Below, one piece after another: positions 38,369 through 40,239 of a stretch of DNA of 42,948 nucleotides. How positions within the stretch are numbered: the stretch's first letter is position 1; each line of letters begins with the position of its first letter. The notes under the pieces were generated by a model, which saw nothing but the letters and a program-made list of their open reading frames with translations, did not search any database and was not told the DNA's origin. A program made the translations under genes and the position numbers. The stretch is taken from the NCBI GenBank assembly GCA_016935975.1, contig JAFGPX010000101.1, forward strand, positions 1 through 42,948, in the 5' to 3' direction. The stretch comes from Deltaproteobacteria bacterium (GTDB lineage Bacteria > Myxococcota_A > Polyangia > Fen-1088).

Positions 38369-38668
38369 CAACGCCGGTCACCTAGCAGCCCGTGGCGAAA
38401 GTCTCCACGTCGCCGTTCGGGCGGATTCTGGCCCGTCTGCTGCGTCGCTGCTCGCTTGAATACCTCTAGTATTCGGCGCTTCGCCGCTCTGGCATCCGGG
38501 CCGAATCCATCCCGAACGGCTCGGTCCGACTTTCGCCACGGGCTGCTAGGGGGGAAACGGGAGGGAACTGAGGAACGGAGACGGACAGGAATGGCGGAAT
38601 GCCGGGGACTTTGCGGCTCCGCTCCTCCGCTTCTCACTCGTGGGTGCTTCTCAAGTCAGGGGCCTTGG
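38369..38668. repeat. Hairpin element, second family, interrupted copy
   Basis: The left end CCAACGCCGGTCA (38369-38380 region) matches CCAATGCCGGTCA of the intact copy at 26806. The body resumes after 38550 (GGGAAACGGG, then GAGGAACGGAGACGGACAGG and GGAATGGCGGAATGCCG) and runs to CTCAAGTCAGGGGCCTTGG. The two parts are separated by an unrelated 170-bp palindrome. The whole fills the 305 nt between the convergent protease and RGG-protein genes. Confidence 0.85.
38381..38550. mobile_element. 170-bp palindromic element with perfect 22-bp inverted ends
   Basis: Ends CCTAGCAGCCCGTGGCGAAA and its exact complement TTTCGCCACGGGCTGCTAGG form a 22-bp perfect terminal repeat (38381-38402, 38529-38550). 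Inside, GCCGTTCGGG pairs with CCCGAACGGC and GAATAC with GTATTC at the apex, so almost the whole element folds into one hairpin. It has no coding capacity. It looks like a miniature inverted-repeat transposable element or a large REP-type palindrome. CTAG occurs just inside both ends and may be a target duplication or part of the repeat. Confidence 0.8.
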
Positions 38669-38670
38669 CG

Positions 38671-39906
38671 CTAGTCCTTGCTATCGCTGGTCCCACCCTC
38701 GGCGGGATTCTCGTCCACCTGGGACGGTGGCTCCTCGGGCTCCGCGACTTTCGGCGGCGCGGCTGGCGCAACCTCTGCCGGCGTCTCCGGCAAGGCGGGT
38801 TCGTCCCAACCGCCGCGGCGGCGGCCCGACCAGTTGCGATCGTCCCGCCGTTGGCCGCCCCCTCCGTCTGGCCGCCTCGGCCCTGCTCCACGCCCGCCCT
38901 CCGGCGAGATTGCGGGAGCGCCCGGCCTGCCTTGCGGCCTCCCGGCGGACATCGGCGCCCTATCCCCGCCCTCGCCTTCCGGCCGAGGCCCGGTTCGTCC
39001 GGGTCTTGCCCCCGGCCGGTCGGGGCGCGGGCCACGCGGTGGACGATCACCTCTTGGGCCGGCGGCCGCGCGCGGGCCATCGAAGCGCGGCCCACGCGGC
39101 GGACGCCGGTCGCGGCGATCCGCGCCCGGCTGATCGGCATGAACGCGCCGATCCTCGGGCGCGCGGGTCAGTGTCCAACCGATTCCGGCACGCGGCACTT
39201 CGCCACGCCCCTCGCGCATGTCCCGGTCGCGGCCACCTGGCCTGTCGTTGCTGAACTTGCCGCCCTTGCCCGGCGGTCCACCCGGACCGCGTGCAAAGCC
39301 CGGCCCGCGGTCGCCAGGACGTCCGCCCCGCTCCCTGCCGCCAGGCCCGCGCCGACGCTCGCCGTCGCGGCCGTCGGAGGCCTCGCGTTGCTGGCTCTGC
39401 GGCCGGGGGGCCAGATCCACGACGTAGTAGTAATCTCCGCGCTTCTGCGCCCCCTGAGGCGGATTCTCGCCCTGCAACACGCGCACCAAACGCACCTGCC
39501 CGGCGCGCCGTCCCACGACATCGAGCGCCTCCATCAGCCGAGAAAGCCGCTCGCCTTGCACCTCCAGTGCGGCGCGCACCGCCTCGGCCTCGGGCCCGGC
39601 ACCCAGGTCCACGGGCTCCTCCGGTTCGGCCGGCGCCGCCTCGGAGGCTCCCGCTTCCCCGCCCGAGCCCTGCGCATCCGAGGCCGCCGCCGCATCCGCG
39701 CCTTGGTTTGCGTCGGGCGTTTCCGCCGACGACTCGCTCGCAGCGGTCGCCTCACCTTCTTCGGCGTCGGCCGGCTCGCCGTCTTGCGGGGCAGAAGGCG
39801 CCTCGGGCGCCGAGACGGCAACCTGCGGGTGTGCGGCCCGGAACGCTTGCTGCGCTTCCGCCGCCCGCTGCAGCAGAATTCCGGAGAACTCGGTGATGGT
39901 CTTCAT
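38671..39906 (-). CDS. RGG/GPR-rich disordered protein, candidate RNA binder
   Basis: A 411-aa cytoplasmic protein in three parts. Residues 1-100: a short helix (TITEFSGILLQRAAEAQQAF) then an acidic Ala/Glu/Ser stretch. Residues 100-170: the only ordered-looking block, a helix (AEAVRAALEVQGERLSRLMEALDVV) and strands (QVRLVRVL, DYYYVVDLA). Residues 175-380: Arg/Gly/Pro low complexity with many RGG, GPR and DRRPPRGPR units, followed by a Pro/Glu-rich end. RGG boxes in eukaryotes and some bacteria bind RNA and promote condensates; such a role here is inference. The ATG has a Shine-Dalgarno AAGGAAGG and a promoter with a 53-nt leader. Confidence 0.78.
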   Translation of the reverse strand: MKTITEFSGILLQRAAEAQQAFRAAHPQVAVSAPEAPSAPQDGEPADAEEGEATAASESSAETPDANQGADAAAASDAQGSGGEAGASEAAPAEPEEPVDLGAGPEAEAVRAALEVQGERLSRLMEALDVVGRRAGQVRLVRVLQGENPPQGAQKRGDYYYVVDLAPRPQSQQREASDGRDGERRRGPGGRERGGRPGDRGPGFARGPGGPPGKGGKFSNDRPGGRDRDMREGRGEVPRAGIGWTLTRAPEDRRVHADQPGADRRDRRPPRGPRFDGPRAAAGPRGDRPPRGPRPDRPGARPGRTGPRPEGEGGDRAPMSAGRPQGRPGAPAISPEGGRGAGPRRPDGGGGQRRDDRNWSGRRRGGWDEPALPETPAEVAPAAPPKVAEPEEPPSQVDENPAEGGTSDSKD

Positions 39907-39965
39907 GGCGTTCGCCCTTCCTTGCTTCTCTATCAGGGCTTCTGTGGCGTTCGGATGCAGCGCCT

Positions 39966-39994
39966 TTCGTAGTGGTTTTCCGGGCTTCCGTCAA
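39966..39994 (-). promoter_or_regulatory. Promoter of the RGG-rich protein gene
   Basis: TTGACG (39989-39994), 17 nt, TACGAA (39966-39971) on the minus strand, giving a transcript with a leader of about 53 nt and a Shine-Dalgarno site. It starts 10 nt after the 3' end of tRNA-Glu on the same strand. Confidence 0.6.
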
Positions 39995-40004
39995 TGGCAA
40001 GGAT

Positions 40005-40079
40005 TGGTGACCCCATCGGGACTCGAACCCGAGATTACGCCGTGAGAGGGCGCCGTCCTAACCGCTAGACCATGGGGCC
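40005..40079 (-). tRNA. tRNA-Glu (CTC)
   Basis: A full 75-nt cloverleaf: acceptor GGCCCCA with TGGGGTC, T-arm CGGG-TTCGAGT-CCCG, anticodon loop CTCTCAC reading CTC for codon GAG, discriminator G/C context as in bacterial Glu tRNAs, CCA encoded. It follows tRNA-Gln by 22 nt in the same transcript. Confidence 0.95.
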
Positions 40080-40101: not shown

Positions 40102-40175
40102 TGGTTCGGGGATAAGGATTCGAACCTTAATAGCCAGATCCAGAGTCTGGCGTCCTGCCATTAGACGATCCCCGA
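40102..40175 (-). tRNA. tRNA-Gln (CTG)
   Basis: A full 74-nt cloverleaf starting with T1 as Gln tRNAs do: acceptor TCGGGGA with TCCCCGA, anticodon stem CCAGA/TCTGG with loop CTCTGGA reading CTG for codon CAG, T-arm AAGG-TTCGAAT-CCTT, CCA encoded. It is cotranscribed with tRNA-Glu from the promoter at 40212-40239. Confidence 0.95.
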
Positions 40176-40211: not shown

Positions 40212-40239
40212 TTTGTAGCAATGCGCGCGGCACTGTCAA
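40212..40239 (-). promoter_or_regulatory. Promoter of the tRNA-Gln-tRNA-Glu operon
   Basis: Consensus -35 TTGACA (40234-40239), 16 nt, TACAAA (40212-40217), then a G/C-rich stretch up to the tRNA-Gln 5' end at 40175. The strongest promoter match in the window. Confidence 0.75.

Follow-up and report, generated by a model that had tools for sequence, protein, structure and literature searches.

RNA-binding proteins with RGG or GAR regions (e.g., hnRNP U, FUS and fibrillarin) couple a folded module to a long disordered region rich in arginine and glycine, through which they bind RNA. An RGG box has been defined as a series of two (di-RGG) or three (tri-RGG) units spaced 0–4 residues apart (PMC9957100). 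In Caulobacter, the C-terminal region of RNase E, the scaffold of BR-bodies, contains charge blocks and undergoes RNA-driven condensation (PMC10412687). The hfq gene is missing from myxobacteria, in which other proteins may act as chaperones (PMC5684412).

The window (i.e., the whole stretch of DNA that was analysed, 42,948 nucleotides, which is contig 163 of a 5.39-Mb assembly that is 94% complete) encodes on its minus strand a protein of 411 residues that is rich in glycine (66), alanine (59), arginine (57) and proline (54). We propose, giving the proposal about an even chance, that this is a lineage-specific nucleic-acid-binding protein, most likely one that binds RNA and is probably well expressed, in which a small domain would be joined to a multivalent basic tail. 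Like the RGG/GAR proteins, it has a predicted folded module followed by a long Arg/Gly-rich region of predicted disorder, and two orthologues (L045 and L046) carry tri-RGG chains; unlike them, it is bacterial, has no known RNA-binding domain, bears two isolated RGG and Pro-rich GPR units, and has six F/Y/W in a tail of 247 residues. With the RNase E region it shares predicted disorder and separated acidic and Arg-rich blocks, but it lacks a nuclease domain (no Pfam match to the RNase E catalytic domain), and its acidic block is inserted inside a small domain of its own. As in the winged-helix proteins MntR, MarR, ArsR and FtsK gamma, the predicted fold has two helices ahead of a beta hairpin; the protein differs from these in an extra strand before helix 1, in a stretch of predicted disorder that separates helices 1 and 2, and in the lack of any significant score. 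Hfq, cold-shock and RRM chaperones resemble the protein in possible role only, with no sequence match.

The features of the locus are:

38671..39906, minus strand: coding sequence, 411 aa (open reading frame, orthologues, dN/dS)
39832..39906, minus strand: residues 1–25, predicted N-terminal portion of the folded domain, strand and helix (AlphaFold2, block pLDDT 90–97; conservation)
39598..39831, minus strand: residues 26–103, predicted disordered Ala/Glu/Pro acidic insert inside the domain (prediction, orthologue comparison)
39409..39597, minus strand: residues 104–166, predicted C-terminal portion of the folded domain, with two helices and three strands (block pLDDT 89–97; alignments)
38674..39408, minus strand: residues 167–411, Arg/Gly/Pro-rich tail, predicted disordered, net charge +13 (sequence, predicted model)
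39157..39204, minus strand: residues 235–250, GEVPRAGIGWTLTRAP, conserved GxGW motif with a low-complexity stretch on either side (conservation)
38797..38823, minus strand: residues 362–370, RRRGGWDEP (alignment)
39916..39923, minus strand: ribosome site AAGGAAGG, 9 nt before the ATG (sequence)
39966..39994, minus strand: promoter TTGACG-17-TACGAA (recurrence of TTGACG-17-TA upstream of orthologues)
40005..40079, minus strand: tRNA-Glu(CTC), a neighbour whose adjacency to the gene is not conserved
40102..40175, minus strand: tRNA-Gln(CTG), a neighbour served by a separate promoter at 40239 (sequence)

The predicted domain and its likeness to winged helices

The original prediction placed one small ordered block at residues 100–170, behind an acidic N-terminal arm. 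The order was predicted correctly for residues 104–166 but the boundaries were not: In the AlphaFold2 model these residues fold with residues 1–25 (block pLDDT about 89–97), such that two separate segments form a single, bipartite beta-alpha3-beta3 domain. The arm is indeed acidic (residues 31–100, net charge −18), although it is better described as a predicted disordered insert within the folded domain, one that is absent from short orthologues and reaches 140 residues in others. Ahead of this stretch the model has a strand (residues 2–8) and a helix (9–25), and after it two helices (105–114 and 118–137) and three strands (138–145, 154–156 and 159–165). A short orthologue (L045, 322 aa, modelled by AlphaFold2 with 40 orthologues) is predicted to form a compact domain of residues 1 to about 91 (block pLDDT 93–98), with the element order E-H-H-H-E-E-E (strand 2–8; helices 9–24, 29–40 and 44–57; strands 64–71, 80–82 and 85–91). 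Invariant residues of the first half-domain are M1, K2, T5, E6 and F7, and orthologues with an intact start open with MK[T/N]xTEF, the exceptions being one MKMLTEF and one sequence with a 5' extension, LRTVTEF.

The protein had been said to belong to no recognisable family, and database searches agree. The full 411 residues matched no Pfam family at E ≤ 10. There was likewise no match to an NCBIfam family (RNA-binding families included) or to the curated RRM, CSD, KH, S1, Hfq and ProQ profiles in these two collections, and no significant match among PDB sequences or in a viral fold library. A Pfam search with 19 core and 14 short-form sequences returned weak, scattered matches and no RNA-binding family. 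The ordered block matched no known family with a non-RNA role, no homologue of known function was found, and a literature search yielded no description of the family.

Comparison of folds was more suggestive. A winged-helix domain combines three helices with a wing formed by a beta hairpin. When the short-form model was compared with the PDB using Foldseek, most of the first 50 matches were to what we take to be winged-helix proteins (MntR, MarR/MepR, ArsR-type, Rrf2 and TFE-alpha), albeit with a best E of 0.68 and all matches above 0.6. The predicted short-form fold is thus winged-helix-like in outline, a likeness that is not significant and on which we claim no membership. Should it be real, the protein could be a DNA-binding nucleoid-associated or transcription-related factor, its domain seated on DNA and its basic tail on the backbone. 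We consider this unlikely, though it is the alternative that fares best. It draws on the prevalence of DNA-binding and transcription proteins among those matches and on the FtsK gamma winged helix, which appears among the weak profile matches; however, an ArsR profile that aligned in register had a probability below 1% and was set aside as not significant, the full-length model gave scattered matches that did not reproduce the winged-helix result, and the minor-groove AT-hook core (RGRP) is missing from most family members, by which an AT-hook reading was also rejected.

The basic tail and its charge balance

Our preferred reading, that of an RNA-binding protein, draws in part on the tail, which the original prediction called RGG-box-like on account of repeated RGG and GPR units. 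The tail is Arg/Gly/Pro-rich (net charge +18 over residues 171–380), and GPR is enriched (6 against 1.6 expected, z 3.7), but its two RGG units lie far apart and are at chance level (1.9 ± 1.3 expected from composition). Its longest chains are a single RGG and a di-RG, falling short of the RGG-box definition, whereas chains of six and seven RGG units occur in L045 and L046. Tail charge is positive throughout and is +12 or more wherever the tail is long. One orthologue (L118) has no RGG at all and more lysine than arginine in its tail (0.19 vs. 0.12), yet is still strongly basic; therefore, basic character is kept independently of RGG units, and the conserved feature is a basic, usually Gly-rich low-complexity tail of which RGG is one realisation among several. 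Within the tail, G241, G243 and W244 are conserved in at least 90% of the 40 orthologues, and RRRGGWDEP is common to four genera of the family, the window's own among them (g1, g3, g6 and g7, with g3 having RRGGWDEP).

In the window's family, the charges of insert and tail nearly cancel (sums of −6 to +2 among 11 complete members), and over seven genus means the two are correlated with r = −0.90, uncorrected for phylogeny. Outside this family the balance is looser, and there are short forms without an insert, so the charge balance is a feature of the window's family only.

This cancellation might point to self-association or to association with a partner, and the conserved GxGW motif and the bipartite domain resemble docking elements. 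Both would suit a protein–protein assembly factor (e.g., a ribosome- or envelope-associated adaptor) whose tail is a spacer or sticker that makes no contact with nucleic acid. We regard such a role as improbable: The short forms of a second family (f12) have no acidic insert and still maintain a tail of +14 to +21, which argues that the tail is not just the charge partner of the insert.

Gene, expression and surroundings

Orthologues of the gene were recovered by protein search in 21 of 59 near relatives, with the genome of the window itself counted among them. A core profile detected it as a single copy in 15 of the 18 genomes of the window's family, all seven high-quality ones among these, and in 25 of 30 genomes of f12. 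Across the Myxococcota class, 49 of 318 sampled genomes matched, with one match per genome, and once a weak match that proved unrelated on reading (G489, locus L132) was dropped, the orthologues span eight taxonomic families. Since the only match at the level of the phylum (G321, locus L080) was likewise unrelated on reading, the family appears to be confined to its class, where it is carried by some genomes related to the predatory myxobacteria, although absences in the class and phylum searches, which scored just 15–18 candidates per genome, are less certain. All named records with orthologues are uncultured, metagenome-type assemblies, labelled mostly as Myxococcales, Myxococcota or Kofleriaceae.

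For closely related pairs within the window's family, dN/dS was 0.05–0.12 for the domain, 0.13–0.19 for the tail and 0.21–0.48 for the insert; the comparison with the sister species gave 0.115, 0.187 and 0.48, respectively, making the insert the fastest-evolving part, and in one f12 pair both domain and tail stood at 0.3. Judged by these ratios, purifying selection acts on the domain and on the tail. Because orthologues exist and dN/dS is well below 1, the comparative data identify the reading frame as a real gene. That it is instead a spurious GC-rich frame opposite the true gene, antisense ORF 38599–39972, has next to no chance of being correct: GC is unusually high, third-position GC (0.77) is below that of neighbouring genes and the antisense frame is longer (457 aa), but orthologues preserve the frame, start motif and domain, promoter and ribosome site are conserved, and dN/dS between close pairs rules the longer frame out.

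The original prediction also credited the gene with its own promoter, a good ribosome site and high expression; the first two have held up, and the third in part. The promoter begins 88 nt upstream of the ATG, and TTGACG-17-TA, always with a 17-nt spacer, precedes 11 of 18 orthologues from several genera (0.11 expected by shuffling). A generic promoter scan found nothing at the gene, because the −10 element is not TATAAT-like; it was the comparative search that revealed it. The ribosome site is present as described. The codon log-ratio (0.034) exceeds that of each of the other 26 window genes that were tested and is within the ribosomal-protein range, although this genome has only a weak codon bias and repetitive composition could contribute to the value. 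Promoter and codon use thus agree that the gene is probably well expressed. In several f12 members, a −10-like element was seen by eye some 6–15 nt before the ATG (e.g., L122, L125 and L126 have a GGTTTGGTGTAGCAA-like element just a few nt before it), which suggests that these messages are leaderless.

The gene sits directly after tRNA-Gln and tRNA-Glu, the only Rfam matches being tRNAs, and it had been linked to a tRNA operon. This link did not survive: The tRNA genes have a promoter of their own (TTGACA-16-TACAAA, of the same TTGAC-TAC type as that of the gene), and the adjacency is not conserved. The sister species (G002) has no tRNA within 955 nt upstream of the gene, and in three other genomes (G004, G007 and G014) the tRNA genes lie about 4–7 kb off, beside the same PP2C/cyclic-nucleotide gene. 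On this evidence, the tRNA operon stands next to the gene by accident.

Other neighbours were set aside as clues to function, in that none adjoins the gene in all orthologue lineages and there is no conserved operon with RNA genes. Some local arrangements do recur. In g2, g4 and g5 (L039, L040, L041, L044 and L047), the gene comes after a small same-strand neighbour whose product (about 100 aa) looks secreted and has a conserved C-x2-CH motif; the gene that follows it in f12 and in L048 encodes a protein of about 165 aa that also looks secreted (no Pfam match in the member tested). A matrixin-type metalloprotease gene (PF00413; 37199–38362 in the window) is convergent with it in several genera of the family. 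Between these two genes lies a 176-bp palindromic element (38378–38553) with perfect 23-bp inverted arms (38381–38403 and 38528–38550), which has 80 matches spread over roughly 40 sites of the genome, many of them at the ends of contigs, and looks like a dispersed repeat of the MITE/REP type that breaks the assembly.

A candidate RNA-binding scaffold without Hfq

The original prediction's comparison to ribonucleoproteins was apt with respect to architecture, in that a folded domain and a long R/G-rich tail recur across eight families and some members bear long RGG chains. The reading as an RNA-binding scaffold gains support because domain and tail are kept together in 40 aligned orthologues, because the tail is under selection and remains basic even without RGG, because chains of 6–7 units do occur, and because the charges of insert and tail offset each other in the window's family; it gains further from the tRNA-type promoter and ribosomal-protein-end codon use, and from the absence of Hfq in relatives together with the charge-block precedent of RNase E. 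The winged-helix likeness, if real, would suit DNA or protein partners equally and so weakens it, as does the want of a homologue of known function and of a conserved operon with RNA genes, and the charge-block argument is itself weakened by a correlation over seven genera that is uncorrected for phylogeny.

If RNA is the ligand, as we infer, the beta-alpha3-beta3 domain would contact RNA or a partner specifically, numerous weak contacts with RNA would come from the long basic tail, and the GxGW motif could serve for docking or as a sticker. Within the window's family, the acidic insert, by offsetting the charge of the tail almost exactly, would set up separate blocks of charge. These could promote self-association, as in a condensate, or rival RNA in binding the tail, as has been proposed for the C-terminal region of C. 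crescentus RNase E.

Hfq was absent from all 29 relatives searched, with 5 of 14 control genomes positive. Relatives without the R/G-tailed gene are also without Hfq; therefore, the family is not a simple Hfq replacement and is only a candidate. More specifically, and with considerable doubt, we put forward a new bacterial family of RNA chaperones or RNP scaffolds in part of the Hfq-less Myxococcota, made of a new small domain, in some members with a tail-balancing acidic insert, and an RGG/GPR tail. Myxobacteria use small RNAs but lack Hfq, and what serves as their RNA chaperones is an open question (PMC5684412), for which a conserved, single-copy, RNP-like and probably well-expressed protein in Hfq-less relatives offers a concrete candidate. 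The family also forms a natural series, with no, short or long inserts and with RGG-rich, GPR-rich or Lys-rich tails, that is suited to testing how a low-complexity protein of bacteria is tuned through its charge blocks. As a separate observation on low-complexity sequence in this genome, its ribosomal protein uL5 (L135 2390–3145, G000:C204) appears to have an N-terminal extension of about 60–70 residues rich in lysine, alanine and glutamate.
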